Assembly: GCA_030647005.1 (NCBI GenBank)
Contig: JAUSKG010000030.1
Coordinates: forward strand, 1-47,416
From: a bacterium
Lineage (GTDB): Bacteria > Patescibacteriota > Patescibacteriia > JACPHY01
Length of the DNA stretch: 47,416 bases
Reading direction: 5' to 3'
The notes under the pieces were generated by a model, which worked only from the letters and a program-made list of their open reading frames with translations, was not told the DNA's origin and did not search any database. Within the stretch, counting starts at the first letter, position 1. Each line of letters opens with the position of its first letter. Shown one piece after another: positions 4,542 to 19,097 of this stretch. Position numbers and translations under genes: made by a program.

Positions 4542-4615
4542 GGGGGTGTGGTGAAGTGGTATCACAGAGGTCTCCAAAACCTTTGTCGGGGGTTCGATTC
4601 CCTCCACCCCTGCCA
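4542..4615 (+). tRNA. tRNA-Trp (anticodon CCA), integration target
   Basis: Acceptor GGGGGTG pairs with CACCCCT. The anticodon stem GAGGT/ACCTT encloses CTCCAAA (anticodon CCA), the T arm is GGGGG-TTCGATT-CCCTC, the discriminator is G and CCA is encoded at 4613-4615. The last nine bases (CCCCTGCCA, 4607-4615) recur at 16308-16316 and 19056-19064, so the tRNA 3' end is the attachment core. The tRNA stays intact after integration. The recombinase gene runs antisense through it and stops at 4562-4564. Confidence 0.96.
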
Positions 4616-6178
4616 TTGTGGAAGAACGGCCGCGAAAGCGGTTGTTCTTTCGTTGATGCAGCCACTTTCATCGAGTTCTAACCGTTTCATGTCGACTGTA
4701 ACGGTGGGGGAGTGCTGTTTGAGCGTCACCCATACAGAGTGCGCATCTATGGCGAGTTTTCGGTCCAAGAGCGAGAAGTTCGAACCAAGTGCTGAAAGCA
4801 CCCGCCTCTTGGTTGCAAGATCACCCTCCGCGAACCAGTGACGCGCGTAGGTTGAAAACTTGAAAATTTGTTCAAGTTGTTCAATCCATCTTTCGTCATC
4901 ACCTTCGGTGTCCCGGAGCCGCGCTTTGAGCCCGTCTTGTTCAACTCGCGTCTTTTCTTTTCTGAGTGCGTATTCCTCCTCGTTTAGCTCATTGGCGATC
5001 CGAAGGTCGAGTAGCCGCTCTAGGCGCGTCTGGGAGGCATTGTAGGCGTCCTGGATGCCCTTTCTTGCCGCCCTGCGATCTGCAGATGTCTCTCGGTTTA
5101 GAGACCTAATGTGCTTGACCGCCCACTTCTGGAACGCCTCGGGAATTTCGATCTCCTCAAGTAGCTCATTGACCTGTCCCTCCAGTACTTCACTGCGGAT
5201 CGTTTTTTGCGAGCATGGCGTCTTTCCCCGCTTTGAACAATGGTAGTAGATGTACTGCTTTTCATTCTTGTACTTGTCTTCTGCGACAACCGAATACCCA
5301 CACTCACCACAACGGATAAGCCCCGAGTAGGCAAACTCCTTGAACTTCGGACGCCGAATCGGTCTTCCCATTATTTTCTGGACTTGTAGGAACTCATCTT
5401 CGGTGACCATCGGCGTGTGAGCTCCTTGGTATTCTTTTGTCTCCCCATCCTCTTCCTGGTGGGCGATGATGCCGCGGTAGAAAGTGTTGCTAAAGAGCTT
5501 GTAGATCACGCTCTTAGATATCGGAACCCCACCGAGACGCTTTCGCGTCGGCGTGCGAAAATTCCACTCGTCATTTGCAATCCTCCGAATGTCTTCTGGG
5601 GAATAGGCGCCCGTGAGCATGAGATCCCACATTTTTTTCACTGCGGAGAAGCGTTCAGGGTCAGGGACGATGGTGTGGTCATCCAGTTTATTCAGATAAC
5701 CAAGAGGGGCAAGCCCTGGCTTCCATCCGATTTCCAGCTTCGCCCGGATGCCTCTTCGCACGTTCTTGCCCAGGTCGGAGACGTATTTGTGTGCCATCCC
5801 AAACTCGACGTACATGAGGAACATGCTTTCATCTCCGGGGAGATAAACCTGTCCTGGGGTAATGATCTCGAGCTTCTGTTGCTCACGCGCCCAGATGACA
5901 CGGCCGCCATCAACCGGATTGCGCGCGAGTCGATCGAGTTTCCAGCAGAGGATGCCATGGATCTCCCCATTTTCCACGCGCTCCAGGAGTCGCGTGAAAA
6001 TAGGGCGCCCCGGCTTCTTGGCCGTCTTTGACTCCTGTAGTATTTCAGAGATACGCAATCCTTGACGCTTGGCGATCTGTTGTAACTCGTTGATCTGGGA
6101 ATCAATTGAAAGCACCTGTCGATCCTCAGATTCGGTCGACTTCCGCGCGTAAATGACGTAGTGCTTTGTGTGAGTCAT
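4562..6178 (-). CDS. Large serine recombinase (integrase) with tRNA-derived C-terminus
   Basis: 538 aa. Catalyses site-specific integration and excision. The N-terminal resolvase domain has the catalytic Ser14 in YARKSTESEDRQ and the conserved arginines in LDRLARN (about 81-87). A recombinase domain follows (about 150-280), then a zinc ribbon with Cys290, Cys293, Cys314 and Cys322, and a coiled coil (about 370-425). The ATG at 6178 was chosen because MTHTKHYVIYARKS is the family-like start; in-frame codons upstream lie in an inverted-repeat leader. The last 14 residues (WRESNPRQRFWRPL) are encoded antisense to tRNA-Trp and are not original. The replaced tail is found in frame at 16230-16316 and 18978-19064, so attP lies inside this gene. 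Confidence 0.93.
   Translation of the reverse strand: MTHTKHYVIYARKSTESEDRQVLSIDSQINELQQIAKRQGLRISEILQESKTAKKPGRPIFTRLLERVENGEIHGILCWKLDRLARNPVDGGRVIWAREQQKLEIITPGQVYLPGDESMFLMYVEFGMAHKYVSDLGKNVRRGIRAKLEIGWKPGLAPLGYLNKLDDHTIVPDPERFSAVKKMWDLMLTGAYSPEDIRRIANDEWNFRTPTRKRLGGVPISKSVIYKLFSNTFYRGIIAHQEEDGETKEYQGAHTPMVTEDEFLQVQKIMGRPIRRPKFKEFAYSGLIRCGECGYSVVAEDKYKNEKQYIYYHCSKRGKTPCSQKTIRSEVLEGQVNELLEEIEIPEAFQKWAVKHIRSLNRETSADRRAARKGIQDAYNASQTRLERLLDLRIANELNEEEYALRKEKTRVEQDGLKARLRDTEGDDERWIEQLEQIFKFSTYARHWFAEGDLATKRRVLSALGSNFSLLDRKLAIDAHSVWVTLKQHSPTVTVDMKRLELDESGCINERTTAFAAVLPQWQGWRESNPRQRFWRPL
4607..4615 (+). other. Attachment core, left copy (attL)
   Basis: CCCCTGCCA, the tRNA-Trp 3' end plus CCA. 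The same nonamer ends the 128-bp direct repeats at 16189-16316 and 18937-19064. Read on the minus strand it encodes WQG in the recombinase frame at all three places. Confidence 0.85.
4622..4649 (+). terminator. Hairpin downstream of tRNA-Trp
   Basis: A 12-bp stem (two G-U pairs) from 4622-4633 to 4638-4649 closed by a GAAA tetraloop; TCG follows. On the plus strand it probably terminates tRNA-Trp. On the minus strand the same bases encode recombinase residues just before the WQG crossover point. Confidence 0.6.
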
Positions 6179-6187
6179 AAAAACCAA

Positions 6188-6288
6188 AGTGGGCGGCACC
6201 TGACTACCCAACAGCGATGAAGCACGTTGGCAGGAACCGCCCACTCTAGTGGCGACTTCTTACGCTTCATCCTCGAACGTTGGGTAGT
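6188..6288 (-). promoter_or_regulatory. Overlapping inverted repeats in the recombinase leader
   Basis: Three pairs are seen: AGTGGGCGG (6188-6196) with 6237-6245, ACTACCCAAC (6203-6212) with 6279-6288, and GATGAAGC (6216-6223) with 6264-6271. The second and third nest into one long hairpin. The first pair encloses the left arms of the other two, so the folds are mutually exclusive. The first pair starts 10 nt before the recombinase start, where no Shine-Dalgarno is visible. This could be an RNA switch, an operator or an origin. Confidence 0.55.
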
Positions 6289-6302
6289 AACCCAAGTATA
6301 CC

Positions 6303-6911
6303 CTAATTCCCAATAGCATTCGAAATTGCCATGTACGCGTCTATCCCCCTCTCAAAGCCCGTTTTTGCCTTTCTGCGCTGCAGTGTCCCGTACCGTTTTG
6401 TTGGTTGGCCTTTCCAATACCGAACCCTCATTTCCTCATTCTTCTCACAGAGCTTGGTGCAGCGCCATGCGGCATTGAGATAGCCGAATCGTCCCGTGTG
6501 CGTTTCTTTTTGGCTCTCGTAGCACAGGTTGTAACATTTTCGACAGCCATAGTACCTGCCTCCGTAGTAGAGAACGGCCACGCGCTTCCTGCAGGCAACA
6601 CCCTCTTTGATGAGTGGGCAGATGAACCAGTATCGTTTCCCTCCAAAGTGGCACGGTGTTGTAGTGAGCCACACTTTGTAATCGTAGTCTGTTTTCTTTC
6701 CATCCTGTCTGCTCGTCGTGGTGTAGTAAAAGCGTATGTATGGGGCATCTGGATAAGTATCGATTTCAATGCCTACGCTGCTTTCACTGCCTCCTCGTGT
6801 CCACGTGATTTGGTGATGCCCCCATTTTGGTTCAGTGGGAAGCATCCCTTTTTGTTTGAGCCAAGAGAGTGATATTGATTGCGTGCCCTCGCATGTATCC
6901 TTGCCCCACAT
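6303..6911 (-). CDS. Zinc-ribbon protein of unknown function
   Basis: 202 aa with no signal peptide or membrane segment. The middle and C-terminal part resembles a small family of conserved proteins seen in mobile DNA (recalled, not searched): FGGKRYWFICPL, then a Cys cluster (CRKRVAVLYYGGRYYGCRKCYNLCYESQ) with CxxC-type spacing, followed by basic helices (RRKAKTGFERGI). This suggests nucleic-acid binding. It lies between the primase terminator and the recombinase on the same strand and is probably part of the element's DNA-handling module. Exact function unknown. Confidence 0.7.
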   Translation of the reverse strand: MWGKDTCEGTQSISLSWLKQKGMLPTEPKWGHHQITWTRGGSESSVGIEIDTYPDAPYIRFYYTTTSRQDGKKTDYDYKVWLTTTPCHFGGKRYWFICPLIKEGVACRKRVAVLYYGGRYYGCRKCYNLCYESQKETHTGRFGYLNAAWRCTKLCEKNEEMRVRYWKGQPTKRYGTLQRRKAKTGFERGIDAYMAISNAIGN

Positions 6912-6967
6912 AGATCGAAATCAATAGGACTTCACAGAAGAAAGGATTTTGCGTTTTGTCTGGATAC

Positions 6968-7022
6968 ACACAGGGCCGGAATTGCTTAGAAAATATATTT
7001 CTAAGCAAAACTGGCCCTGTGT
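6968..7022. terminator. Two-tier hairpin terminator after the primase gene
   Basis: The outer stem ACACAGGGCC (6968-6977) pairs with 7013-7022. The inner stem TTGCTTAGAAA (6982-6992) pairs with 6998-7008. The primase stop codon (7001-7003 on the minus strand) lies inside the inner stem. It separates the replication operon from the zinc-ribbon and recombinase genes. Confidence 0.75.
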
Positions 7023-9181
7023 CCGCGTGCTCTCAGCTCACCATATTCGTCTGAGCAGAACCATTCGAACTCTTTTTTGATGGTCACGATCCTCATGGGT
7101 CGGCCTGCGTCGTTGTTGGTCTTTTGGTCTTCAGTGTTCACAATGCCAAGGACGTGCAGCGTCTCGATTTCTTTGAGTGCGGTAGGATTGCTGCAGTTTA
7201 TTGCGTCCATTACGATTTCCGTACTCACGGTGCCTCCGTGTTCAAGGATTGCGCCCAGAAGACGAACACGGTTGAGTTGTGCGGATTGTAGGGCCACATC
7301 AATGGCTACCCAGAGATCCGCTTCGGCAATCTGCGTTCTTCCCGAGATGAGCGCGTGACCACGCACGAGATTATACAAGCAGGTGCTAATGCGATCCGGT
7401 TTTTCGATGACGACATTCGTGTAGTGCTGCTCGTCGCTCTCGTCGTTGCTCCAGACACTGATCGTGCCGCGCAGGCGTGCGAGGAGCCGTGCACATCGGG
7501 CGATGATTCTTCGGAGATGCACTGGATCTCCTTCATTGTCCCATGCCACACCCCCAGAATGGTGTTTCCAGAGATTCAACGCAAAGTCGCACGTCGCATC
7601 GCGACACTCCTGTTCCTTGAGTTTGTAACTTGGTTTTGCGAGTTGTTCTGCAAGCGCATCTTCGGACTTGTCAGGCGAATGCATGTTCACGAAGAACAGA
7701 CGGCTGCCCAGATTCCCCATCGTTTTGAACACGCGCGGCTGAATGGGTGTGCTCCCTGCAAGGAACATGAATACGAAGTTTCCTCGATACCCGCGCTTCC
7801 CGTGGATGCCGCTGTCCGTCTCAAGCCCCTCGCCGTCGAACACCCGTGTCATCACACCAAGATTCTTCACCAGTGTTTCTTGGCGTTCAGCAAAGATCGG
7901 TGCCAGATCACGCACGACGAACATCTTGAATCGGATTCGTGGTAGCAGATCAATTTCTTCCAGCTGTTCACGTTTGACATTGGATGCGTGGGAGACAAGC
8001 GATGATGGCGTAAAGCTATCGCTGGCGTAGGAGATTCCCTGAAGGTCCGCGAAGAAGTTGAGCGTAATTGTTTTCCCTGCCGACGGTACGTCAATCAATA
8101 CAAGCCCAAACGGATTCCGGATGTCCTTGATGAGCAGCTGTGCAAGCACGGACATGCAGATTTCGGATACCGTAAGGAACTCAGGGAACCGCGATGATAG
8201 CGCCTCTCGCCATGCTTCGATGGTCATGGTTCTCTGTGGTGGCGGAACATCTGCATAGCGCAACTCCGACTCCTCAAGTTGCGCTAATGTTTTTCCGGCT
8301 GTCAGTATTTCTCCAAAGTCATCAGGTGTCCGCTTCAGGCGCGCAAAGAAGTCCGTTACGTCCCCCTTTTCTCCAACGTCCCCCGGAAGCTCGCAAATTT
8401 TTGCATGGGGTATGAGCTTGCCAACCATGAGCGCCCCAGCGCGTCCCTGTGCGTCATGATCGTAGACAATGTGCACTTCCGGGACATTCGAGAGCAGCTG
8501 CGCCCATTCTTGCTTGAAGGTGCCCGCCCCTGCGGTGCCGGAGACAGCCAGGATGCCATTTGAGAGAAGAACGAGTGCATCCAGTTCCCCCTCGCAGATC
8601 ACCACAGATATCGCTCCTTTGAGCAGGTGAACTCCGTAGAGGGCCGCCTGCGCCCCCTTGGGTGTTTTGTAGCGCGGCTCGTCGTTGCTGCCCGGAGCCG
8701 CACGTCTTCGAGCGTAGAGCCATGCTCCACTTTCGTCGGCAATCGGGATGGTGATGTGGCTGCCATCCCATCCGAGTTTTGCATCCCCAATGACAAGGTC
8801 ACTGAGACCCCGATCGTCCTTGAGGTATTGACGGATATGATCGGGGAGATTGTTGTGCCATGTAACGATTTGATCCTTTGAGATTTGTGAGGAAGCTGCG
8901 TTCTTTTGCTCGTGCTGCACCGTCGCGGCGCGGCCCTGCGTGTGCTCTATCAGGCCAAGCTTGTACGGGTCATCTCCGAGGTGCTGGATGAGCTGTGAGA
9001 TGTGGCCGCTCGTTTTGCACTTCTGGCAGCTGTAGACCTGCTTTGCGGTATTGATGTAGAAGTGTCCCGCGTGACGCACCTTCACGTCGCAGTCATTGAA
9101 GGGACACCGCATCACTAATTCATTACCGGTGCATTCTTTGAATTTGATGTTTCTCGTGCTAAGATATTGTTGTACATCCAT
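7001..9181 (-). CDS. Primase-ATPase replication protein (CHC2 zinc finger, Toprim, ATPase)
   Basis: 726 aa. The N-terminus is a primase-type zinc finger (Cys26, Cys31, His40, Cys52, Cys55: RCPFNDC and YSCQKC). A Toprim domain follows with Glu197 (VVICEGELDAL) and the acidic pair 241/243 (VYDHDAQGR). Next is an ATPase-like domain with a P-loop-like DVPSAGKT (364-371), whose first Gly is Asp. The C-terminus has a winged-helix-like segment (residues about 650-700). This order matches primase-helicase fusions that replicate plasmids and phages by making primers and unwinding DNA. It is the last gene of the minus-strand operon that starts near 10046, so it probably supports autonomous replication of the excised element. 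Confidence 0.85.
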   Translation of the reverse strand: MDVQQYLSTRNIKFKECTGNELVMRCPFNDCDVKVRHAGHFYINTAKQVYSCQKCKTSGHISQLIQHLGDDPYKLGLIEHTQGRAATVQHEQKNAASSQISKDQIVTWHNNLPDHIRQYLKDDRGLSDLVIGDAKLGWDGSHITIPIADESGAWLYARRRAAPGSNDEPRYKTPKGAQAALYGVHLLKGAISVVICEGELDALVLLSNGILAVSGTAGAGTFKQEWAQLLSNVPEVHIVYDHDAQGRAGALMVGKLIPHAKICELPGDVGEKGDVTDFFARLKRTPDDFGEILTAGKTLAQLEESELRYADVPPPQRTMTIEAWREALSSRFPEFLTVSEICMSVLAQLLIKDIRNPFGLVLIDVPSAGKTITLNFFADLQGISYASDSFTPSSLVSHASNVKREQLEEIDLLPRIRFKMFVVRDLAPIFAERQETLVKNLGVMTRVFDGEGLETDSGIHGKRGYRGNFVFMFLAGSTPIQPRVFKTMGNLGSRLFFVNMHSPDKSEDALAEQLAKPSYKLKEQECRDATCDFALNLWKHHSGGVAWDNEGDPVHLRRIIARCARLLARLRGTISVWSNDESDEQHYTNVVIEKPDRISTCLYNLVRGHALISGRTQIAEADLWVAIDVALQSAQLNRVRLLGAILEHGGTVSTEIVMDAINCSNPTALKEIETLHVLGIVNTEDQKTNNDAGRPMRIVTIKKEFEWFCSDEYGELRARGHRASFA

Positions 9182-9216
9182 ACTGTTCTAGCTCCTCGAG
9201 GGGAGAGAGCGAGGGG

Positions 9217-9606
9217 TCATGCCGACTCCTCGCTCTCGCTATTTCCGAGAGGCAAAAACTCCGTGACTTTGACATGCTCTTTCCCACTTTGTGACATGGC
9301 ATTCCTCACGACGATTTTGAGCTTCCTTCCGATCATCTCCTCGAGATCCAGCCCCTCGATCATTTCGTGCGATGTGAGCTTTCGATTGAGGACCGCCTCG
9401 CACATGGGCAACAGCTTGCCCTTGGGGTGAAGGGTGGGGGATGTCCAAAGACGAATGCTTTTCTCCCCGAAGGACTCGAACTCGAACATGAGCTGCACCC
9501 TCTCCTCATCGGAGTAGTGCTGGACCTCTTCGTAGCTCTTGAGACGCACGACGTGGATTCCCGCCTCCAGAATGTTTGATGATGTGCTGCGAACCAAGTA
9601 AGACAT
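9217..9606 (-). CDS. Putative ssDNA-binding protein (DUF669-like)
   Basis: 129 aa. The order of elements resembles phage-type DUF669/OB-fold single-strand binding proteins: an N-terminal beta part, a FEFESFGEKSIRLWTSPTLHPKGKL core, a helix, then DLEEMIGRKLKIVVRN and a final VTEFLPL strand. This is recalled family shape, not a search result. It lies 35 nt upstream of the primase gene on the same strand, which fits a replication partner that coats the template. The C-terminus is acidic (NSESEESA), like SSB tails that bind partner proteins. Confidence 0.55.
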   Translation of the reverse strand: MSYLVRSTSSNILEAGIHVVRLKSYEEVQHYSDEERVQLMFEFESFGEKSIRLWTSPTLHPKGKLLPMCEAVLNRKLTSHEMIEGLDLEEMIGRKLKIVVRNAMSQSGKEHVKVTEFLPLGNSESEESA

Positions 9607-9648
9607 GCGATTGTGGGGTGAGTGAATAAAATAATTCCAAGCCCAGAA

Positions 9649-9804
9649 TCAGGGCGGATCCCTGTTCATTGGACGATAAACCGCGAGCATCAGCGACAAA
9701 ACGCGCTCGGCGTAATCGTGGGCTGCCTCAACGTCGAGATCCTCCCCAAATTCCCGCCACCAAATCTCGTGGAATTCATTGATGGTGGTCTCGGGGATCC
9801 TCAT
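9649..9804 (-). CDS. Small conserved protein, 51 aa
   Basis: Begins MRIPETTINEFHEIWWREFGEDL and ends LSLMLAVYRPMNRDPP. The pattern (a FxEIWxxEFGE start, an acidic helix, then LxLxxxVYRP) matches a small protein I recall as frequent in CPR genomes and mobile DNA, with no known function. Its ATG overlaps the upstream gene's stop by four bases (ATGA, 9801-9804), strong evidence that it is translated. It is soluble and has no signal peptide. Confidence 0.7.
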   Translation of the reverse strand: MRIPETTINEFHEIWWREFGEDLDVEAAHDYAERVLSLMLAVYRPMNRDPP

Positions 9805-10046
9805 ACGCGACGCACCGAAAACACCTGCGCCTTCAGCAGCTTCAGGGCATTGAAGTACGCGAGCGCATCAACCTGGAGCTTCCCGTTCCAGTACGCCTCC
9901 ACCTTCTCGTTGATCGTTCCGTCGTCAGCGAAAACGAAAGCCACGCGTCGAGCATCAATTGGCTCCACGCGTAACAACTGCGTTCCTTGTAGTGATTTGA
10001 GTGCCCCGCTCAGTCCCAGGTCAGAGCTGGCAAATTCTCTATTCAT
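9801..10046 (-). CDS. Small hypothetical protein, first gene of the replication operon
   Basis: 81 aa from the ATG giving MNREFASSDLGLSG. I chose this start because GAAGGG lies six bases upstream; longer in-frame starts exist at 10070 and 10052. The protein is soluble with a mixed beta/alpha pattern (VEPIDARRVAFVFADDG then a VEAYWNGKLQVDALAYFNALKLLKAQ helix). No family recognised. Its stop overlaps the next gene (ATGA), and the operon continues to the ssDNA-binding-like protein and the primase. Confidence 0.65.
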   Translation of the reverse strand: MNREFASSDLGLSGALKSLQGTQLLRVEPIDARRVAFVFADDGTINEKVEAYWNGKLQVDALAYFNALKLLKAQVFSVRRV

Positions 10047-10138
10047 ATTCATCCCTTCAGAAATCAACACTAACTTCGTTCAATCTCCCATTTTGTCCAT
10101 CGGGGCCGTAAGGGGGATGAGGTCGGGTACACAAAACG

Positions 10139-10169
10139 AAAGAATGGGCTTTGTGTAGCCCATTCTTTT
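10139..10169. terminator. Hairpin between two minus-strand units
   Basis: AAAGAATGGGCT pairs perfectly with AGCCCATTCTTT across TTGTGT, with A and T runs at the base, so it can act in both directions. It ends transcription of the 312-aa gene upstream on the minus strand. Confidence 0.8.
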
Positions 10170-10206
10170 ACCTAATCCACACCCGAGATGTACCCGATGT
10201 AGTGCG

Positions 10207-11145
10207 CTAGAATTTCCAGCGGTATTGTTTCTCGCTCCTCACGTTTCCTCCGAGGGGTTGGTCCTCGATGATCTCCGAGTACTTCCCCCCGGATGTTTTA
10301 GCGACCCGCTGATTGATTCCTTTAATTGCCTTACGAATCTCCTCAGTGTATTTTTTGTTGGTTCGTTTTGAGTGTAGTTGTTGGCTGATGGTACTGTATC
10401 CAAACCAGTTCCTTTGAGCGTCTTTGTAGAAAAAGTTGATGAGGTCACTACGAATGCCCGGCTCAAATCTAATCGGTTGGGACATATTAGGAAGAGTTAG
10501 GACACTCTTATCGCTCTCGGGGTCGCTACTACGGCCTCCATATATGAAAAACGCCCGATCGGATGGATTGCGCGCACTCCGACCCTTTGCCCCCATCGGT
10601 ATTCTTGTTTCGGTCGGCTTGATTCTTGTTGTCACGCTCGCTTCGTTGGAGTTGAAGATTTGGATTGTGGGTGCTGCAGTTTGATGCCGTGTTTGAGTCG
10701 GTTGCTGTGCCGCCTCTTTATTGTCCCCCCTCTTGACGCTGTTGGAGTAGCGGTCTAGCTTTTCAATGTCAGGAATAAGGTATATGACTGGGCCAACAGT
10801 TCTGATGAGGTACGCCAAATCTACATCTACGGGTGTGTTGTTGTCGTAGGAAGAAAATTCAATTATCACTCCCTCATCCTTCAATCGCCAGAGAATGGAA
10901 TTGATTTCGATGCGAGTGAGACCCTTAGCTAGGAGTGTTTCAGTTTCTAGGGCGACTCCAAGGCCTGCTTCGAAGTCTATGAGTACATCTCCGTAATGAT
11001 CCCAATTTTCTCTGTTCGATACATTTTGATACTTTCTTGCCACTGTCTGTAAATTGGCCTTTTCTTTACTTGAGCAAAGGCCAATTTGTACTTGTATTGC
11101 GTTTACGACTATTGCGATTTTTTCGAGAGCTTCATGCATATTCAT
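10207..11145 (-). CDS. Hypothetical protein with winged-helix-like parts
   Basis: 312 aa, no signal peptide. The N-terminal half (residues about 1-125) is helical and ends in a helix-turn-helix-like stretch (GLTRIEINSILWRLKDEGVI). A low-complexity linker follows (QQPTQTRHQTAAPTIQIFN). The C-terminal 90 residues (NFFYKDAQRNWFGYSTISQQLH, then basic helices) also look like a DNA-binding module. It may be the element's regulator or partition/replication accessory protein, but I recognise no family. It is bounded by the hairpin at 10139-10169 and, divergently, by the structured RNA. Confidence 0.6.
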   Translation of the reverse strand: MNMHEALEKIAIVVNAIQVQIGLCSSKEKANLQTVARKYQNVSNRENWDHYGDVLIDFEAGLGVALETETLLAKGLTRIEINSILWRLKDEGVIIEFSSYDNNTPVDVDLAYLIRTVGPVIYLIPDIEKLDRYSNSVKRGDNKEAAQQPTQTRHQTAAPTIQIFNSNEASVTTRIKPTETRIPMGAKGRSARNPSDRAFFIYGGRSSDPESDKSVLTLPNMSQPIRFEPGIRSDLINFFYKDAQRNWFGYSTISQQLHSKRTNKKYTEEIRKAIKGINQRVAKTSGGKYSEIIEDQPLGGNVRSEKQYRWKF

Positions 11146-11229
11146 CGATTATCATTCTATGCTCAACATAGCCGGATTTTAGTCGAAATGCAATTCATTC
11201 GCACATGGTAGTTCTCGCGTTGTTGAATG

Positions 11230-11238
11230 TGCTACGAT
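11230..11238 (+). promoter_or_regulatory. Extended -10 promoter of the structured RNA
   Basis: TGCTACGAT (TGnTAnnnT) ends seven bases before the 5' arm of the RNA stem, exactly where transcription would be expected to start. No convincing -35. Confidence 0.55.
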
Positions 11239-11244
11239 ATAAAT

Positions 11245-11392
11245 TGTCCAAGCTCAACCGAAAATGAGTAGCTGACCCGCCTCACGGCTGGTTGGCCAGG
11301 GTTAGCGCCTAAAAGGGGGCACCCTGGTTAAAACAATCGGGCACTAACCGTGTTCGGTTGGGCTTGGACACCACTTAGGGTGTCCCTTTTTG
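11245..11392 (+). ncRNA. Structured RNA or attenuator of unknown class
   Basis: The outer arms at 11245-11262 and 11353-11370 pair over 18 bp (17 Watson-Crick plus one G-U). Inside, CCAGGGT (11296-11302) pairs with ACCCTGG (11321-11327). An alternative pairing, GGTTAGcGCC with GGGCACTAACC near 11340-11349, would exclude it. A terminator follows: GGACACC (11366-11372) with GGTGTCC (11379-11385) and CTTTTT. The terminator's 5' arm shares 11366-11370 with the outer stem, so the two compete. It could be a free small RNA with its own terminator or a cis-acting attenuator for the gene at 11420. It matches no riboswitch, 6S, SRP or tmRNA pattern that I know. Confidence 0.65.
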
Positions 11393-11419
11393 TTTGCCTT
11401 CAGGGCTTGACACTACGCT

Positions 11420-12412
11420 ATGCTCAAACGCCTCATTTTGGCAGTGGTAGCATTGGTGCTTTTAGGATTTGGATGCTTTGCGCCAAAGTATTTGGCACCT
11501 CCAGAATTCATCAAGTTACCAGATGCGACTGGAAGTCCTTTGCGAATTGAGGGTGTTGGCTTCAAGGGGGCGACAACTTTGTTGTACGTAGACGATGAGT
11601 TGGTTGAAAGCTTGGCTAACGATAAGAGTGGCAACTTTAGCACCGAGCTTTTATTTTTGGAAAGTGGGCAGATCGAGTTACATGCAAAGCAGCAGTATGG
11701 AGGCACGATTAGCGAACCCTCTTCGGCGGAAAAAGTGTTGGTGGATGTTGACCCACCTGAAGAATCTTTGACATTGTTGTCCGAAATTCCTTCCTTTACT
11801 ACAGCACAAGAATTCAGCGTTAAGGGTCGGGCTTCGTTAGATTCATTCGTCGTGGTTAATGACCGGGCGATAGAAGTAGATTCAGATGGAAATTTCGTTG
11901 CACAGCTCCCGCTCAAGGAGGGAACAAACAAGTTCACTTGGAAATTGCAGGATGTATACGGAAATGATACGGGAGTTTTAAAAAGTTCAGAAATTGTAGT
12001 TGATGCTACGGCACCAGAAATCTCGACATCAAGACTAGCACTGTCATTTGCGGATAGAATGCCGCAGGCAAGCACAAAAGAAATCGTCTATCTTGACAGT
12101 GGCAGCGTTCATCTTTATCCACCCGCAGCGACTGCTGTTCTTATAGAAGGAGAAGTACGAGGAGAGTTATCAGCATTAACCCTAGATGGGAAAAGGATTC
12201 ATTTGGATGAGCGAGGAAGGATTAATCAACGCGTACCGCTGTATCTCAGATTCGGTTCCAATAAGTTCAAAATTGTTGCGAAAGATCTTGCGGGTAACAG
12301 CACCACCGAATACATGAGCATCGAAATCGTTTCAACTGAAGACCAAAATAATCAAGATATTCTCGACAGATTAGATGATCTTGAGGGGAGTATTGACGAT
12401 TTGCGGTATTAG
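11420..12412 (+). CDS. Secreted Ig-like multidomain protein, possible lipoprotein
   Basis: 330 aa. The N-terminal signal (LILAVVALVLLGFGC) ends in a Cys at a lipobox-like but poor position, so it may be lipid-anchored. Three similar beta-sandwich units follow. Their shared pattern is a leading IEG/VKGRA strand, V-D-D/N-E/R, a GNF turn, LxxGxNxFxxxxxDxxGN and a closing strand; the units are at about 35-110, 130-200 and 225-305. This is the Ig-like/Big-type repeat used in surface proteins. The C-terminus is a short acidic coiled coil (DQNNQDILDRLDDLEGSI). It is the first cargo gene, 28 nt after the RNA terminator, and is followed four bases later by the nuclease gene. Confidence 0.75.
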   Translation: MLKRLILAVVALVLLGFGCFAPKYLAPPEFIKLPDATGSPLRIEGVGFKGATTLLYVDDELVESLANDKSGNFSTELLFLESGQIELHAKQQYGGTISEPSSAEKVLVDVDPPEESLTLLSEIPSFTTAQEFSVKGRASLDSFVVVNDRAIEVDSDGNFVAQLPLKEGTNKFTWKLQDVYGNDTGVLKSSEIVVDATAPEISTSRLALSFADRMPQASTKEIVYLDSGSVHLYPPAATAVLIEGEVRGELSALTLDGKRIHLDERGRINQRVPLYLRFGSNKFKIVAKDLAGNSTTEYMSIEIVSTEDQNNQDILDRLDDLEGSIDDLRY

Positions 12413-12415
12413 CCT

Positions 12416-13369
12416 ATGCGCAGAAGCATACAAAAACTTCGTCATTACGCCAGTAGCATCATAATCGTATTGGTGCTGATTTCGGCCTTTTTTGGTACTG
12501 TGCGTCCAGTATTCGGGCATCCCGGTCGTACCGCTTCTGATGGTTGTCATTACTGCAGGACAAATTGTGATAGTTGGGGAGTGGCATGGAATGCACGGCA
12601 CTGTCATGGCGGGTATATTGCGCCACCATCCTATACGCCGCCTCCTACGCTAATCCCGAAGACTCTAACTGCAGCGGAGGAGCACCGGATGCTCGCGATC
12701 GTCACCGAAGTGATTGATGGGGACACCGTCCGCGTTCGTCTATCGGACGGCACGATCGAAAAAGTACGAATTATCGGCATGGATACGCCAGAATCGAAAG
12801 ACCCGAGAAAGACCGTGGAGTGCTTCGCCCATGAGGCAACCGAGCACCTTAGGGACATGCTCAAGGGATCGAGCAATGTGACGACCTTGGTGCGCGACGA
12901 CATCAGCGGCAATCGAGACACGTACCAGCGATTGCTACGACACCTCGAAATCACACCAACAGCAGACGTTACAGAGCGGGATGTCGCGAGGCGTATGATT
13001 CGAGACGGGTACGCCTATGCATACACGAAATATCCATTTGAAAAGGTCAAAATGGAGCAACACATCGCTGCTGAAAAAGAAGCTCGCACACAAGCACTAG
13101 GGCTTTGGGCGCCTGGAGAATGTGAAGAGGATCCGCGTGTCGCTGCTCATGCAAACTCGAAGACAACAGATGACAAGCTAACACCATCACTTGACAATCC
13201 TGTAGAAGCTGGTAAAGATATATCGAACCCAAAAGATGGGAACAATTCGACCGACGAACAGGAGCAAACAACCGATGAAGGATGGCCAGGACTCGCACTG
13301 TTTATTGTCGTACTTGGAGGCATCGCCTACATTGCGCGACCAAGTACTTGGAAGAAATGGGCCAAGTGA
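12416..13369 (+). CDS. Secreted membrane-anchored thermonuclease (YHYH + SNase)
   Basis: 317 aa. A signal or anchor helix (about 13-34) precedes a Cys/His-rich module (HPGRTASDGCHYCRTNC to HCHGG, 35-66). A staphylococcal-nuclease domain follows, with VIDGDTVRVRL (acidic residues 101/103), Arg118 and Glu126 in VRIIGMDTPES, Arg172 in DTYQRLLRHLEI, and LGLWAPGEC closing the fold. A polar linker and a C-terminal helix (about 290-310) plus basic tail would anchor it in the membrane. It should cleave DNA or RNA outside the cytoplasm. In an element it could serve competition, nucleotide scavenging or DNA processing at the envelope. Confidence 0.88.
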   Translation: MRRSIQKLRHYASSIIIVLVLISAFFGTVRPVFGHPGRTASDGCHYCRTNCDSWGVAWNARHCHGGYIAPPSYTPPPTLIPKTLTAAEEHRMLAIVTEVIDGDTVRVRLSDGTIEKVRIIGMDTPESKDPRKTVECFAHEATEHLRDMLKGSSNVTTLVRDDISGNRDTYQRLLRHLEITPTADVTERDVARRMIRDGYAYAYTKYPFEKVKMEQHIAAEKEARTQALGLWAPGECEEDPRVAAHANSKTTDDKLTPSLDNPVEAGKDISNPKDGNNSTDEQEQTTDEGWPGLALFIVVLGGIAYIARPSTWKKWAK

Positions 13370-13393
13370 CGCCAACGCAGCAGAAATCGTGAT

Positions 13394-14335
13394 ATGAGCA
13401 TACAAAAACGAATCTTAATGGGGTTGATGACCATGATATTGGCTGCATCTTCGTTCGCGTTTGCTATAGATGCTGATGCCAGCGTTCGTGTGCGTGGGTA
13501 CTACCGTAAAGACGGAACGTATGTGCAGCCGCACTATAGGAGCAACCCGGACGGAAATCCGTATAACAACTGGAGCTATCCAGGGAATACCAACCCTTAC
13601 ACTGGTGAAACGGCAAAAGGAAATCCAGCTACAAATCTACAAAACAGTAGAACGTATAGCTCATCACCGATACTGACACCCGTGCTGAAACCATCCATCC
13701 CTTCTCTGGCTCCTGCGGTGCCTGCACGCGTTTCTGTGTCCCCTGTGGCAACGCCACGCCAGTACATCCCACCATCTAACCCCACGGGCATTACCACAAA
13801 TGAGCAGGAGGATGGATCGTTACTCGTCAACTTTATCGGAGCATCAGATGCGGATGGAGTAGTAATAAAATTTAATGTCGCGCTGTCCTCAAGCGATCCT
13901 AAGTATAAGGACCTATCCGAATTCCGTTGGATAGAGACATCAGCTGGTATCGCGTCTTACTCTATTCCTGCTTATCTTCGATCACAAAATTGGTGGATAC
14001 TCGTGAGGACGCTCGACAACGACAGCATTATCACTAGGACTGCCGTCTACTTTCCATTCAATCCCTCTTCGAATACTTCGCCTGTTGCGCAGCAACCAAC
14101 GACATACGCCGTTCCGAGGACTAGGCGGTATGTAACGCCGCAAGTCCCCATACAGAATATTCGAGCAGCATCGAATCTCGATGCTGAGGTACTTGAGCGA
14201 GCGAAACCAGGTTGGTTGTACGACATTGTTGCTGAATACCCTAAGTGGTACGAAGTGTCATGGTTTAGTAATCGTGACGGGAAAGTACATCGTGGTTGGA
14301 TGATGCGCCAATATGCGAAGGTTGTAAGTTACTAG
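13394..14335 (+). CDS. Secreted protein with C-terminal SH3-like domain
   Basis: 313 aa. A signal peptide (about 5-30, ending FAFAIDADA) is followed by a motif common in secreted proteins (VRGYYRKDGTYVQPHYRSNP then NPYTGE) and a Pro/Ser-rich linker. A beta domain spans about 135-225. The last 65 residues form an SH3-type wall-binding domain (NIRAASNLDAEVLERAKPGW then WYEVSWFSNRDGKVHRGWM). It probably binds cell wall or a surface polymer. It follows the nuclease gene by 24 nt on the same strand. Confidence 0.75.
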   Translation: MSIQKRILMGLMTMILAASSFAFAIDADASVRVRGYYRKDGTYVQPHYRSNPDGNPYNNWSYPGNTNPYTGETAKGNPATNLQNSRTYSSSPILTPVLKPSIPSLAPAVPARVSVSPVATPRQYIPPSNPTGITTNEQEDGSLLVNFIGASDADGVVIKFNVALSSSDPKYKDLSEFRWIETSAGIASYSIPAYLRSQNWWILVRTLDNDSIITRTAVYFPFNPSSNTSPVAQQPTTYAVPRTRRYVTPQVPIQNIRAASNLDAEVLERAKPGWLYDIVAEYPKWYEVSWFSNRDGKVHRGWMMRQYAKVVSY

Positions 14336-14342
14336 CATCTTC

Positions 14343-14444
14343 ATGAATCTACCCATTCTGCCACTAGCCGTGTGGTACAGCAATCGCCATGGCCAGATGC
14401 ACGGATGGATGATGAAGCAGTACGCGCAAGTGCTGGTCCAGTAA
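14343..14444 (+). pseudogene. Duplicated SH3-domain fragment
   Basis: A 33-codon frame starting MNLPILPLAVWYSNRHG and ending WMMKQYAQVLVQ. It closely matches the end of the preceding SH3 protein (WFSNRDGKVHRGWMMRQYAKV). It begins eight bases after that gene's stop and ends directly against the next gene's upstream ATG. It is most likely the leftover of a tandem duplication of the SH3 gene. Confidence 0.6.
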
Positions 14445-14459
14445 ATGCCTGACACCCAC

Positions 14460-14831
14460 ATGCGATCACCTGCGACGATCATCATTGTCAGTGCCATGCT
14501 GCTTGTTGGCACAGGATGCGGGAGCTCCAGATACGAATACGATGCCTATTATGATGGGGGCAGCGTAGACGAGCACGAGTATGAGTACACGGTCGAAGAA
14601 CCCGAGCCATACTCTGGCTCGACAACTGTTGAAGCGTGCAGTCAAAGCAGTGGTAACTGCTACGATCTCGACGCTGATATTTCCGATGGGGAGGTTGAAA
14701 CAATCTACTTTCCGAACGGCGGCTACCTTGAACTAGATGACGCGGAACTCGATGAGTATGGTTCGGGATCAGGATCAACTTACGACGATGAGTGGGAGAT
14801 CCAGTGTGATGACTGCGCTTGGGAGCACTAA
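14460..14831 (+). CDS. Small acidic lipoprotein
   Basis: 123 aa from the ATG giving MRSPATIIIVSAMLLVGTGC; an upstream ATG at 14445 would add five polar residues. The lipobox-like VGTGC puts the lipidated Cys at residue 20. The mature part is very acidic and Tyr-rich, with four later Cys that may form two disulfides (ACSQSSGNCYDLDADISDGE, IQCDDCA) and the segment IYFPNGGYLELDDAEL. I recall similar small lipoproteins in CPR genomes. Function unknown. Confidence 0.7.
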   Translation: MRSPATIIIVSAMLLVGTGCGSSRYEYDAYYDGGSVDEHEYEYTVEEPEPYSGSTTVEACSQSSGNCYDLDADISDGEVETIYFPNGGYLELDDAELDEYGSGSGSTYDDEWEIQCDDCAWEH

Positions 14832-14839
14832 GCACTGAT

Positions 14840-15019
14840 ATGTCAGAATCAGCGACAAAAACACGTTACGCGAACCGCGCCGTGATCATGGTGACGATCA
14901 CAAAAGTCATAGGAATGGTAGCCCTCGTTGCTTTCGTGGCCGCGTTTAGGATTCTACCGGCCATCCTCTTTCTCGCAGCGGCGGTTTTCGTGACGAGTAG
15001 GCTAAGAGAGCCCGTATGA
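14840..15019 (+). CDS. Small membrane protein, 59 aa
   Basis: Starts MSESATKTRYANRAVIM. About two hydrophobic helices follow (VTITKVIGMVALVAFVAAF and ILPAILFLAAAVFV) with a basic end (SRLREPV). The start is 9 nt after the lipoprotein stop, and its stop overlaps the next gene (ATGA). No family recognised. Confidence 0.6.
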   Translation: MSESATKTRYANRAVIMVTITKVIGMVALVAFVAAFRILPAILFLAAAVFVTSRLREPV

Positions 15020-15420
15020 TTACCAACCCATCACTCACTCCATCAACTGCTGATAGGGGGGGCGAGACGAATAAACCAAGTCAAAGTGTCGCTCAGACCA
15101 TGAGGACAAGTCAAACCGTAAAATTTGGTATTGGCATGCTCCTCTCTCTTGGTACTAGGGGTGCCTTTCCTCCCGCATCCTATTCAGAGGCATTGTTTCC
15201 CGGAGTACTTGTGGCTGTCACACTACTGCCAGTCTATTTACTATTCTTGATCGGTTTATTGCTAGTAATCGCAGCCATTCGACCATTGGAGGATAAAGTG
15301 AAAAGGAAGACGCGCCTGATCACCGGAGGCCTGTATATGCTGTTGTCTGGAGGCACCCCAATGTTTCTTCTGGCAGGCGCAGGATTCATGATCACTGGGT
15401 TGAAAACGAAGAAAGTATGA
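15016..15420 (+). CDS. Membrane protein with a Gly-rich TM module shared with element B
   Basis: 134 aa with a polar N-terminus and about three membrane segments. The C-terminal part (LLLVIAAIRPL, then RLITGGLYMLLSGG, then FLLAGAGFMITGLKTKK) closely parallels residues about 60-125 of the protein at 17386-18276 (ILLIISALRGL, LLITGGIFLALPF, FTGAGFLIAGM). The two elements therefore carry related membrane proteins. It is coupled by ATGA overlaps to both neighbours. Confidence 0.65.
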   Translation: MITNPSLTPSTADRGGETNKPSQSVAQTMRTSQTVKFGIGMLLSLGTRGAFPPASYSEALFPGVLVAVTLLPVYLLFLIGLLLVIAAIRPLEDKVKRKTRLITGGLYMLLSGGTPMFLLAGAGFMITGLKTKKV

Positions 15421-15497
15421 TTATCAACCCCTTCCTCAAAACGCGCCTGCTCATCGTAAGAATCATTGGAATTGTAGTCGCCCCCACTAATATATGA
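15417..15497 (+). CDS. 26-residue mini-ORF or gene remnant
   Basis: Reads MIINPFLKTRLLIVRIIGIV and ends VAPTNI. It has ATGA overlaps with both the gene before and the gene after. Its start resembles MITNPSL of the preceding gene. Either it is a tiny translated membrane peptide that couples its neighbours, or it is the 5' remnant of a frameshifted gene continuing at 15494. Confidence 0.4.
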   Translation: MIINPFLKTRLLIVRIIGIVVAPTNI

Positions 15498-15778
15498 GGA
15501 GGAATGAAGTCCTACGTACAGCATTTCTGATCGCCGGTATCGCTGGAGTAATCGAAATTGGTACTCAGTCAAGTCAATCAGAGGAATTGGGATTTGTCAG
15601 CATCGGTTTTTTGAGTATTCTTACTCCAATTCTTGGTGCTTCAACAGCGGCAGTAATAACAACTTTTTTTGGTACCATTTTTAGCTTCTCAATCCTCTGG
15701 TTGATATTGGCGTTAATTTATCACAGGAAGATCAAAACCCTAGAAAATGCCGCACCCTCCTCTGAGAGCAAGCCCTAA
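15494..15778 (+). CDS. Membrane protein, 94 aa
   Basis: Two to three hydrophobic segments (FLIAGIAGVIEIG; FVSIGFLSILTPILGASTAAVI; FSFSILWLILALIY) and a charged C-terminal tail. The start may be internal to an older, longer gene (see the 26-codon frame just upstream). No family recognised. Confidence 0.5.
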   Translation: MRRNEVLRTAFLIAGIAGVIEIGTQSSQSEELGFVSIGFLSILTPILGASTAAVITTFFGTIFSFSILWLILALIYHRKIKTLENAAPSSESKP

Positions 15779-15818
15779 TCGAATCCCTCATTTTATTTGT
15801 GTTATATCGTGAGGCATT

Positions 15819-15992
15819 ATGAATACCGCAAACATCAAAGGATTACTGTACAGCCTTCTCTTTGTCCTCGCAATTGGGATGGCTATTCAGGCTGCAATTT
15901 TGTACTTGGATGATGGATCAGTTGGTGAACCACCGGATCCATATGGGGACGCACGCATTGAAAATTGCGGCCCAGGCGGAACGTCGTGCTAA
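15819..15992 (+). CDS. Small secreted or membrane peptide, 57 aa
   Basis: Starts MNTANIKGLLYSLLFVLAIG with GTGAGG four to five bases upstream as a ribosome site. One hydrophobic helix (residues about 8-28) precedes a short acidic tail ending IENCGPGGTSC with two Cys. It is too short for most gene finders. A longer overlapping frame from 15862 is less likely because this one has the better ribosome site and a signal-like helix. Confidence 0.55.
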   Translation: MNTANIKGLLYSLLFVLAIGMAIQAAILYLDDGSVGEPPDPYGDARIENCGPGGTSC

Positions 15993-16023
15993 TGCTAACC
16001 CACAAACTAATGTCCCTCCTAAT

Positions 16024-16224
16024 ATGCAGCTTTTCCTCACTCTACTAGCAGCACTTGTCGCATTCGCCGTTCTTAAGGTGGTTTGGCGAAAGGTGATGGG
16101 GATTATTGGTCATACGCCGGCGACGCGGAGGGCGGCGCTTGAAGAGTTGATAGATTCTTTGAATGAGGAATCTTCCACCAAAGATGTTGGGGACGGCGGT
16201 TCAGAAGCAGAGGCACCGCGCTAG
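16024..16224 (+). CDS. Small single-pass membrane protein, 66 aa
   Basis: Starts MQLFLTLLAALVAFAVLKVV, one membrane helix, then a basic juxtamembrane part and an acidic tail (ALEELIDSLNEESSTKD). The frame is open upstream to 15862 but would overlap the 57-aa gene, so I prefer the ATG at 16024. Its last 12 codons lie inside the 128-bp attachment repeat, antisense to the sequence beyond the severed recombinase tail. Confidence 0.5.
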   Translation: MQLFLTLLAALVAFAVLKVVWRKVMGIIGHTPATRRAALEELIDSLNEESSTKDVGDGGSEAEAPR

Positions 16225-16316
16225 ATTGTCTAACCATTTCCGGCCCTCTGTAGTATCCTGAAATCAACAACCAATTCAGCCAATGAGTTTCTGACTTGTT
16301 CCACGAGCCCCTGCCA
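16189..16316. repeat. 128-bp attachment arm, copy 1 (with severed recombinase tail)
   Basis: Direct repeat of 18937-19064, equal in length with no gaps. By hand count there are about 18 mismatches, clustered in the middle. It ends in CCCCTGCCA (16308-16316). On the minus strand it encodes WQG-LVEQVRNSLAELVVDF then RILQRAGNG and a TAG (16230-16232), the original end of the serine recombinase. It also contains a small dyad, TAGA-TTG-TCTA. Confidence 0.88.
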
Positions 16317-16446
16317 AACAGCACCACACAACAGCAGCCACAAGCGCCCCGCCGCGAAATAAGCGAACCTGACACGGTTTCGGTTCGATCCAGCCGCTCG
16401 CGTCCGTGCTTCATGGTGGTGAGAACGCGTGAGGGTTGTACAACTT

Positions 16447-17376
16447 ATGTTTTGTAAAAATTGCGGACAAAAACTTAAAATCGGATCAAAAGTTCTGCAC
16501 AATGTGCGGACAGGAGTTCCTGCTTCGCAAAAGCAACCTACTGAAAATACGAAGGGTCAAGAATCTTGGGTAAACGGAAAAATTGCTAAAACCGCCGTCA
16601 TCGTTTTGGTTGTTGCTGTATTAGTTTGGGTATTAGTTTCGGGGATAGTAGCAGTAGCAACATTTGTAATGAACTCCTTTGTTGTTCATTTTAATAATGT
16701 AGGATGGGAATCATTTGATTCTGGAGACGCACAAAGTGCCATAAATCAGCTAAGAAGCGCCTCTGATTTAGCAGTTACAAACACAGACAAAGTAAACTCT
16801 CTAAAGAACCTCGCTTATGTATACGAGTCGGAGGGACTTTATGATGACGCCCACGATACTTACACAGAAGCACTTTCGCTAACAAGTGAAGGCTCTTTTG
16901 ACTACCACCTCATCTCCGGCGAAATAGCCCTACTGGAGGACAGGCCAAATACGGCACTCGTAAGCTACAACAATGCTTATGAAAAGAATCAGAATGACGT
17001 TCAAATCAATGGCGGGCTAGCGTTGTTCTACTTAGATATTGAGGATACACATCCGCAATATGTGGATTATCTAGAAGCTCTTTCATATGCAAAACGCGCT
17101 TACGAGTTCGACACAGAAAAATCTCAAGCATCAAAACAAACCTTGGCAATCGCATATTTTTACAACAACGACTACAATCAGGCAATCTCCTTACTTTCAA
17201 CATCCAATTTGACTCAACATCCTGACGCCGGTTTTTGGCTTGGCCTCGCTTATTTAAGCGATGGAGATGAAACCAATGGATGCTACTATCTTCAAAAATT
17301 TGCAAATGCGGCCGACTACAAATTAAACCCAAGTAATTTTGCAGAAGCCCCGTCTTGCTTTAAGGAATTGAGATGA
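16447..17376 (+). CDS. Zinc-ribbon/TPR membrane protein with scrambled second zinc knuckle
   Basis: 309 aa from the ATG giving MFCKNCGQKLKIGSK. The N-terminus is half a zinc ribbon (Cys3, Cys6). A membrane helix follows (residues about 50-75), then TPR-like helix pairs facing out (NVGWESFDSGDAQSAINQL, NLAYVYESEGLYDDAHDTY, YNNAYEKNQNDVQINGGLAL). In another frame, 16489-16520 reads KFCTMCGQEF, the expected second CxxC. One extra A in the A-run at 16488-16491 and one missing T near 16517 would explain the loss, so two compensating indels, or sequencing errors, are likely. Confidence 0.75.
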   Translation: MFCKNCGQKLKIGSKVLHNVRTGVPASQKQPTENTKGQESWVNGKIAKTAVIVLVVAVLVWVLVSGIVAVATFVMNSFVVHFNNVGWESFDSGDAQSAINQLRSASDLAVTNTDKVNSLKNLAYVYESEGLYDDAHDTYTEALSLTSEGSFDYHLISGEIALLEDRPNTALVSYNNAYEKNQNDVQINGGLALFYLDIEDTHPQYVDYLEALSYAKRAYEFDTEKSQASKQTLAIAYFYNNDYNQAISLLSTSNLTQHPDAGFWLGLAYLSDGDETNGCYYLQKFANAADYKLNPSNFAEAPSCFKELR

Positions 17377-17385
17377 TTCAAGTGG

Positions 17386-18276
17386 ATGGCCAATATGAAG
17401 CGCAAACAATCTAACAACGAACTAGATAGATGGACATTAAGTGTCGCTTGGCGCATCGTTAAATATCTTTTGGGACTTTCCTTTGCGATCAATGCTCCAA
17501 CATGGATGAACGAATTTTTGGAACAAGAAATATCTACAAGGAGTATTACGTTCGGATTTATTGCGGTCGCGCTAGCTCTCGTCGTTGGAATACTCCTCAT
17601 TATTTCCGCACTACGAGGTCTTGAAAGGGCAACATATCAAAAATTGCTACTCATTACTGGGGGAATATTTCTCGCACTGCCCTTTGCGCTCTCCCTGGCG
17701 TCGCCGCTATCGTTGTTCACCGGCGCGGGATTTTTAATAGCCGGCATGAGGTATATACCAAAACGAAAACCACAAATGAAGTTACCGGATGAGCATGTTC
17801 CCCCTATCGCACAAAACATGAATCCTCAAGAACAGAAGGCAAGCACAGAAGGCAAGCAGAATCTAAAAAAGCAGAGATCAAATACAATACGTCAACTTAG
17901 GCAAAGGTTTTGTCGAGGGGTGCGGGGCCCGGCATCTCGATTCATTCTGATTTCAGCAGCAATTTCTTTCGTTGTATTCGAAATATGGTGGATGCAAATT
18001 CGGCCCGCATCTATCAAGAAAGAATGTTCTTGGAAGGAAATGCATAACGATGCTGTTCACGAGATTACTCAGGCGCAGGCAGATAAAGAGAGGGAGGCAT
18101 GCTTAGAACGACTAGCGCGAGGGTTCAAAAGCCCCTTTAACGACGACATCAATCGAAGATTTGGCGAAGCTAAATGCAATAGCATTAGACCCCAACCATC
18201 TCAACCAGAAAAAACATGGTACGAACCGGCAGGAGATGTAGAATACAAACGTTGTCTCCATAACAACGGTTTGTAA
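17386..18276 (+). CDS. Membrane protein related to the element A protein at 15016
   Basis: 296 aa. Three membrane segments lie in the first 125 residues (FGFIAVALALVVGILLIISA; LLLITGGIFLALPFALSL; LFTGAGFLIAGM), matching the module at 15016-15420. A charged linker (130-175) follows, then one more helix (FILISAAISFVVFEIWWM, about 183-200). A Cys-containing tail completes it (KKECSWKEM, EACLERL, EAKCNSI, and YKRCLHNNGL at the end). Start ATG is 10 nt after the upstream stop, so it is co-transcribed. Function unknown. Confidence 0.65.
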   Translation: MANMKRKQSNNELDRWTLSVAWRIVKYLLGLSFAINAPTWMNEFLEQEISTRSITFGFIAVALALVVGILLIISALRGLERATYQKLLLITGGIFLALPFALSLASPLSLFTGAGFLIAGMRYIPKRKPQMKLPDEHVPPIAQNMNPQEQKASTEGKQNLKKQRSNTIRQLRQRFCRGVRGPASRFILISAAISFVVFEIWWMQIRPASIKKECSWKEMHNDAVHEITQAQADKEREACLERLARGFKSPFNDDINRRFGEAKCNSIRPQPSQPEKTWYEPAGDVEYKRCLHNNGL

Positions 18277-18433
18277 TTATTTTCACTGATCAAAACATTG
18301 CGCCGCCTCATTCGAGTACTCAATGTGAGATGTACCACCAAGAAAATCATGTCAATCCGATTTTGCCCTGTATACGTTGGTCAATCGTTGCGCCGTCGCG
18401 TATTCATCAAGAACATCAAACCTGACACCATCT

Positions 18434-19064: not shown

Positions 19065-19097
19065 TGTCAAAGCCCCGTATTGGACCAATACACATCC

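Follow-up and report, generated by a model that had tools for sequence, protein, structure and literature searches.

A serine recombinase gene with its attachment site in its own 3' end and a C-terminal tail that appears to be exchanged on integration at tRNA genes

Organization of the tRNA-Trp locus

The window analyzed here, a stretch of 47,416 nucleotides, contains a tRNA-Trp gene and, on the opposite strand, a large serine recombinase gene that runs into it, with its ATG at 6178 and its TGA at 4562-4564 (Table 1). The last 14 codons of the recombinase are antisense tRNA-Trp sequence, and the C-terminus of the integrated protein reads ...PQ-W-QG-WRESNPRQRFWRPL. The Pfam domains Resolvase (PF00239), Recombinase (PF07508) and Zn_ribbon_recom (PF13408) were all above cut-off, and the protein matches the integrase family phrog_95. 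The catalytic serine (S14), as well as Y10, R12 and K13, is invariant across 12 relatives, and the three domains together with this serine identify the enzyme as a large serine recombinase. Similarity to solved serine integrases was found over the whole protein: the A2 profile matched SPbeta YokA (E=4e-30) and also the A118 integrase, and Foldseek matched the SPbeta, phiC31, Bxb1 and LI integrases, with a low global TM and a different arrangement of the domains.

Table 1. Features of the tRNA-Trp locus and of the DNA inserted there (window coordinates)
Feature	Position	Strand	Basis
tRNA-Trp (CCA anticodon), target gene, tRNA half of attB	4542-4615	+	ARAGORN; empty site in G001
Large serine recombinase gene, integrated form, 538 aa	4562-6178	-	ORF; Pfam; phrog_95 integrase
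tRNA-derived C-terminal tail WRESNPRQRFWRPL and stop	4562-4606	-	ORF translation
T-arm GGTTCGATTCC, putative attB zinc-domain motif, with TTC at -23 as counted from the CCA end	4591-4601	+	5-bp shift relative to attP
Core CCCCTGCCA, left copy, tRNA/element junction	4607-4615	+	Sequence search
Left arm of attP (P' half), within the recombinase 3' coding region	4616-4632		Left-arm comparison
Element with recombinase, primase-like, SNase-domain and other genes	4616-16316		ORFs; domain searches
Hairpin GAACGGCCGC-GAAA-GCGGTTGTTC, then T-rich DNA, antisense to the recombinase 3' coding region	4624-4655	+	Sequence
First right arm: WQG-LVEQVRNSLAELVVDFRILQRAGNG and stop (native tail, displaced), with core 16308-16316	16230-16316	-	Reverse-complement reading; motif scan
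TTCTGAC, putative attP zinc-domain motif, with TTC at -28 as counted from the CCA end	16289-16295	+	Motif comparison
Second stacked segment without recombinase: TPR protein, membrane protein, endonuclease VII-like protein	16317-19064		ORFs; domain searches; two right ends
Second right arm: WQG-LVEQVRNSLAGLTIDPGILQRAGNG and stop, with core 19056-19064	18978-19064	-	Reverse-complement reading; motif scan
TTCTGAC motif of the second right arm	19037-19043	+	Motif comparison
TGTCAAAGCC, original tRNA-Trp flank (attB' side), displaced by 14.4 kb	19065-19074	+	Empty site in G001

Plus-strand copies of the core CCCCTGCCA, of 9 bp, start at 4607, 16308 and 19056; the single further copy in the window lies on the opposite strand at 24538. 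Read on the minus strand from the cores at 16308 and 19056, the recombinase frame continues into WQG-LVEQVRNSL...RAGNG and a stop; the original tail of 25 codons thus stands, in frame through the core, at the right ends 16316 and 19064 alike. Joining either of these ends to 4616 in silico restores a protein of 549 aa. The two right arms form a 131-bp repeat with 85% identity, and a search of the whole genome found the 29-bp arm with its core nowhere but at these two places. Conserved DNA is also present past the stop codon of the tail, common to 16186-16229 and 18934-18977, with no shared coding frame between the two copies.

The genome G001, of the same genus, has an empty site, which was located via the neighbouring upstream MFS gene (83% identity). 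There the CCCCTGC of tRNA-Trp is followed by GTGTCAAAGCC / GTGTCAAAGCCTCCC, and the window has TGTCAAAGCC at 19065. Comparison of the neighbours of typA in relatives yielded no empty site, because typA sits elsewhere in them. Since TGTCAAAGCC comes right after the second right end and the site is empty in G001, all of 4616-19064 is inserted DNA. The arrangement of the right ends indicates two stacked segments; the recombinase belongs to 4616-16316, and 16317-19064 has none.

An earlier note on this DNA had placed the recombinase gene antisense to tRNA-Trp at its 3' end, as the ORF and ARAGORN coordinates confirm, and had described the same core, on the same strand and in the same frame, at both right ends, coding for the native tail, which reverse-complement translation reproduced. 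Its claim that a circle would restore a 549-aa recombinase with a 25-residue tail holds for the joining of 16316 to 4616, and the empty site that it had proposed, tRNA-Trp joined to 19065, is the one present in G001. For the circular junction, a comparison of the window's exact attP junction with viral contigs gave no match. The note did not mention that the two right ends mark two stacked segments, nor that the family at large shares the arrangement.

Two further observations were made at this locus. The tRNA-Trp gene of G001 (L152 2229-2310) has no encoded CCA and the CCA of the window tRNA-Trp lies inside the core; the element may supply CCA to tRNA-Trp. The TypA protein of the window (19172-20971) is 69% identical to that of G003, a member of another family, and only 51% to that of G001, identities that suggest gene replacement or a paralogue.

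Distribution of the recombinase among tRNA genes

Related recombinases were detected in 94 of the 144 genomes of the relatives set and in 189 of the 287 genomes of the phylum, and one relative is a Candidatus Moraniibacteriota MAG. A contig search with the single window protein recovered one distant relative only (L032). For 99 genes (72 at class level and 27 at phylum level) the position of the stop codon could be determined, and in 83 of them (61/72 and 22/27, respectively) the antisense end lies within or just across a tRNA gene. The tRNAs are of 16 kinds (Ser, His, Asn, Trp, Gln, Leu, Glu, Gly, Lys, Ala, Arg, Asp, Met, Val, Ile and Tyr). Judging from these gene ends, the window case is one instance of a widespread, family-wide arrangement.

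Five genes that were not assigned to tRNAs lack a clear native tail (L018, L025, L101, L179 and L188); they may be degraded, truncated by the contig or located at other sites. Viral loci (n=12) mostly carry a shorter type of recombinase without native tail. Relatives that lie away from tRNA genes and end without any such tail had been named in the earlier note as evidence against its reading. The genes in question mostly support it, and a few are left in which no tail is obvious.

Displaced native tails

The regions beside the recombinase genes were searched for a repeat of the tRNA end, and right ends were found for 25 of the 83 tRNA-ended elements. They share the motif TTC(T/G)(A/G)AC, placed exactly 28 bases before the end of CCA. 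A leave-one-out scan with this motif over 593 kb, a part of the set, gave 27 matches in the forward direction, none in the reverse complement and none in the reversed sequence, counts that chance would not give. The forward matches are mostly the assigned right ends, with two further ones in an array of G131 and three that are weak. Weak right ends were seen in G093 (at 32 kb) and G132 (core 6/9).

Translated in the frame of the recombinase, the arms give W..x[VLIF][DE][DE][VI]RT or W..(V)[DE][DE]VRT; displaced tails of this kind are WGRIVRDVRMIIQQQDEYIYIPDFR (G007), WLSIVDDVRTAMKEDFYIPNTKNVLITN (G073) and WLALLNDFRTFDWAEEYKYPTVVLDQMKGLLAKYENL (L137). The earlier note had asked whether a tail like LVEQVRN is conserved among relatives, and a tail of the W..(V)[DE][DE]VRT type is indeed coded in all 27 arms analyzed (25 displaced and two from uninterrupted genes). 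The recombinase frame is open over 13 codons in 27/27 arms, the other two frames in 11 and 6. Mean entropy per codon position is 1.48/0.97/1.67 (permutation p=1.25e-4), and the pattern persists when the three motif codons are left out (p=2.5e-4). The conserved arginine is encoded by AGA in 15 arms, CGA in 8 and CGC in 2, and in the V/I/L/F codon position 2 is invariant while positions 1 and 3 vary. The tRNA-Glu group uses another reading frame, and there the tail motif shifts along with the frame (L127).

Once integrated, the arm is separated from the gene by kilobases and cannot be part of its translation; the coding-type pattern must therefore stem from selection in the joined state. The codon statistics indicate that the displaced native tail is under coding-type selection. 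Part of its conservation is at the DNA level, because the tail partly overlaps a DNA-binding half-site. This overlap is real, but reading the tail motif as a DNA site and nothing more is not sustained, since periodicity persists outside the motif codons.

Attachment sites and the tRNA terminator

In serine integrases the zinc-domain motif of attP lies 5 bp further from the centre than that of attB (PMC3783163). The same offset was found here. When the right arms of 23 elements were compared with the T-arms of the tRNAs, identity peaked (0.63) at a shift of exactly 5 and at this shift only, the maximum of 200 random sets being 0.35. It follows that the T-arm serves as the attB motif, with the variable acceptor stem supplying the core.

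A hairpin and T-tract just after the tRNA were present at 53 of 82 such sites and in 26 of 82 control stretches, a background so high that only an enrichment is claimed. The hairpin with its T-tract is likely a replacement for the tRNA terminator lost on insertion.

Uninterrupted genes and cassette arrays

The recombinase gene of G345 is uninterrupted, encoding 549 aa with the C-terminus ...TSVLTHWGRIVCDVRTEMILQV. In this genome (G345:C2, L197 16500-18900) a 719-bp segment with one ORF lies between tRNA-His and the recombinase gene, in the order tRNA, core, cassette, right arm, core, gene, and the gene's own right end is found 6.8 kb further. The right arm of the cassette thus meets the left arm of the gene, and attP and the native tail are restored. 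Two more genomes have uninterrupted genes, with IRT tails and a spacing that is again -28: G028, where the gene comes after another recombinase element at tRNA-Lys, and G042. An IMG/VR contig (L155) likewise carries an uninterrupted recombinase gene with a tail of this kind, located away from tRNA genes; its protein is 44% identical to that of the window and has ...RLLGDLDDVRTYGYKAS... at its end.

The window, G062 and G053 have two right ends each, and G131 has at least six behind one tRNA-His element. The G131 array (L045, oriented positions 6945-15006) consists of tandem right arms that bound segments of about 0.7-2.4 kb with one to few ORFs. These segments begin with a hairpin and T-tract directly after the core, and in G053 the start of the segment is nearly identical to the start of the chromosomal flank. 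Such segments look like non-autonomous cassettes that share a right attachment arm, and the array of G131 resembles an integron-like cassette array that would be run by a serine recombinase. The segment of G053 (L041, oriented 6597-7313) carries a gene whose product resembles a Doc/Fic-type protein by eye (...SHFFSNGNKRLA...), possibly the toxin of a toxin-antitoxin pair.

Proposed mechanism and alternative explanations

Taken together, these data make it highly probable that 4616-19064 was placed at tRNA-Trp by a serine recombinase with attP in its own 3' end, and that a swap of tails accounts for the locus. The comparative data show integration at the 3' ends of tRNAs, with the C-terminus of the integrase replaced in frame, which puts the enzyme with those of the Mx8 and rumA type; they also show selection on the native tail and natural cases of its restoration. 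The earlier note had centred on a serine recombinase that exchanges its tail in frame at a tRNA, and this proposal is supported by the empty site, by 83/99 relatives, by the displaced tails and by the uninterrupted genes. In the free circle the right arm, core and left arm would be joined, and the gene would encode the 549-aa enzyme with the conserved tail. The attB site would consist of the T-arm and acceptor stem of the tRNA, and recombination with it would rebuild the tRNA end. After integration, the native tail sequence would stay behind at the far right end and the gene would read via the core into antisense tRNA (538 aa). A further segment inserted between tRNA and gene, as in G345, would restore attP and the full-length gene.

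AlphaFold2 predicted a single C-terminal helix for the uninterrupted G345 protein (residues 521-548, across the core Trp, block pLDDT 83-87), whereas residues 499-538 of the integrated window protein were predicted as disordered, with a pLDDT of 31-38 across the last 40 residues. This contrast is suggestive only, because the two models use different proteins and alignments. We infer that the free enzyme depends on the tail as a C-terminal helix, probably in order to integrate. Integration would then give a weakened or altered enzyme, which would help to lock the inserted state. A switch function of the tail exchange is plausible, and we give about even chances that a functional difference between the two protein forms matters for direction or stability.

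Alternatively, the exchange may be a neutral by-product in a compact element that carries attP at its 3' end, the tail being kept only through its overlap with recognised DNA. The right-arm motif TTCTAAC at -28 is indeed the zinc-domain motif, and Mx8 and the rumA ICEs show that such an overlap can arise repeatedly. However, the periodicity outside the motif codons, the frame that is open in every arm and rarely so otherwise, the invariant second position of the V/I/L/F codon and the motif that moves with the reading frame in the tRNA-Glu group all argue against it, and we regard a neutral swap as possible but rather improbable; the remaining probability goes to other roles. A further alternative is a tail that acts in excision or directionality and not in integration, the tail-less form being suited to attL x attR recombination with a directionality factor. 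The integrated form of the Mx8 integrase has been reported as less active or altered in specificity (PMC4701971, PMC6070905), and contacts of the C-terminal domain set the directionality of serine integrases (PMC5814800), but no directionality factor was identified in the analysis of the window, and this role seems to us unlikely, if conceivable. Tandem duplication or an assembly error could produce repeats and tails without site-specific recombination, and the genome is a draft in 35 contigs whose two right arms are 85% identical. This explanation is contradicted by the comparative data and was rejected as extremely improbable: the same architecture recurs in dozens of separately assembled genomes at 16 kinds of tRNA, G001 has the empty site, and both the -28 spacing and the 5-bp shift are fixed.

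Returning to the tail exchange as a switch, we tentatively propose a cassette system at tRNAs in which the attachment site would double as a switch of the enzyme, an extension that we hold possible and clearly short of probable. The enzyme next to the tRNA would lose its helical tail, and a cassette with the same right arm entering the slot proximal to the tRNA would recreate attP and the full-length gene, as in G345, and so reset the enzyme. Arrays such as that of G131 would be the product.

Comparison with known systems

SSV-type archaeal integrases are tyrosine recombinases that have their attachment site inside the integrase gene and target tRNAs, and integration splits the gene. The site within the gene and the tRNA target are shared with the elements described here, where instead of a split gene a short tail is swapped. 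An SSV-type split integrase is ruled out in the window, the enzyme having the Pfam domains of a serine recombinase and no tyrosine recombinase identity. SCC elements use CcrA/B and a protein-gene target, and integrons use the tyrosine recombinase IntI and attC hairpins. Both differ in these respects from the arrays found here, but are similar in their stacked segments with one common attachment end beside the recombinase. An integron is likewise ruled out for the window, because the recombinase is a serine enzyme and not IntI, and the cassette ends are attP-type arms and not attC.

The Myxococcus phage Mx8 reportedly integrates at the 3' end of tRNA-Asp. Its attP lies inside the integrase gene and integration replaces the C-terminus (Int/IntX), as proposed here. 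It differs in that its integrase is a tyrosine integrase (PMC4701971), in that 112 residues are replaced by 13, and in being a single phage. The closest serine enzymes are the single serine integrases of streptococcal rumA ICEs, whose genes contain the attachment site and whose C-terminus is exchanged on integration (Ambroset et al., PMC4701971). These ICEs insert into a protein gene, with a change of frame in both proteins, whereas the family of the window targets the 3' end of many tRNAs and has a conserved native tail that is displaced in frame. The earlier note had listed known parallels: its likeness to SSV-type integrases holds, but the list was incomplete, since the rumA ICEs (PMC4701971) and Mx8 were missing.

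Serine recombinases at tRNA genes have been called rare, the examples given being phiRSM1 (tRNA-Ser) and Mycobacterium AICEs (tRNA-Leu) (Ghinet et al., PMC3218068). The ssrA islands of Dehalococcoides, with the serine recombinase DsiB, stack in tandem with non-autonomous segments (PMC3146451), an accretion comparable to the cassette arrays found here. All of these integrate at tRNA or tmRNA genes like the elements of the window family, but no C-terminal exchange was found described in the portions of these papers drawn on here (PMC3218068, PMC3146451). An incomplete literature search returned no account of the tail swap in these bacteria, nor of the combination of tRNA target and serine tail exchange, its breadth, the T-arm as attB or the restoration of tails by cassettes. 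Exchange of the C-terminus by serine integrases (rumA ICEs) and by a tyrosine integrase at a tRNA (Mx8) is already known; what appears to be new is their combination and its breadth.

The Islander paper states that serine integrases are not known to target tRNA genes (PMC4383910). Contrary to this statement, and to the term "rare", most relatives found here target tRNA genes, of 16 kinds. The T-arm is a nearly universal attB motif, and therefore a single family of enzymes needs little change to pass from one tRNA to another. Natural tRNA-targeting serine integrases are thus on offer for genome engineering, and the cassette arrays suggest a route by which these small genomes accumulate genes. 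As insertion is coupled to the identity of the C-terminus, the old question posed by Mx8 and the rumA ICEs becomes testable in many natural replicates, including G345 with its restored tail.
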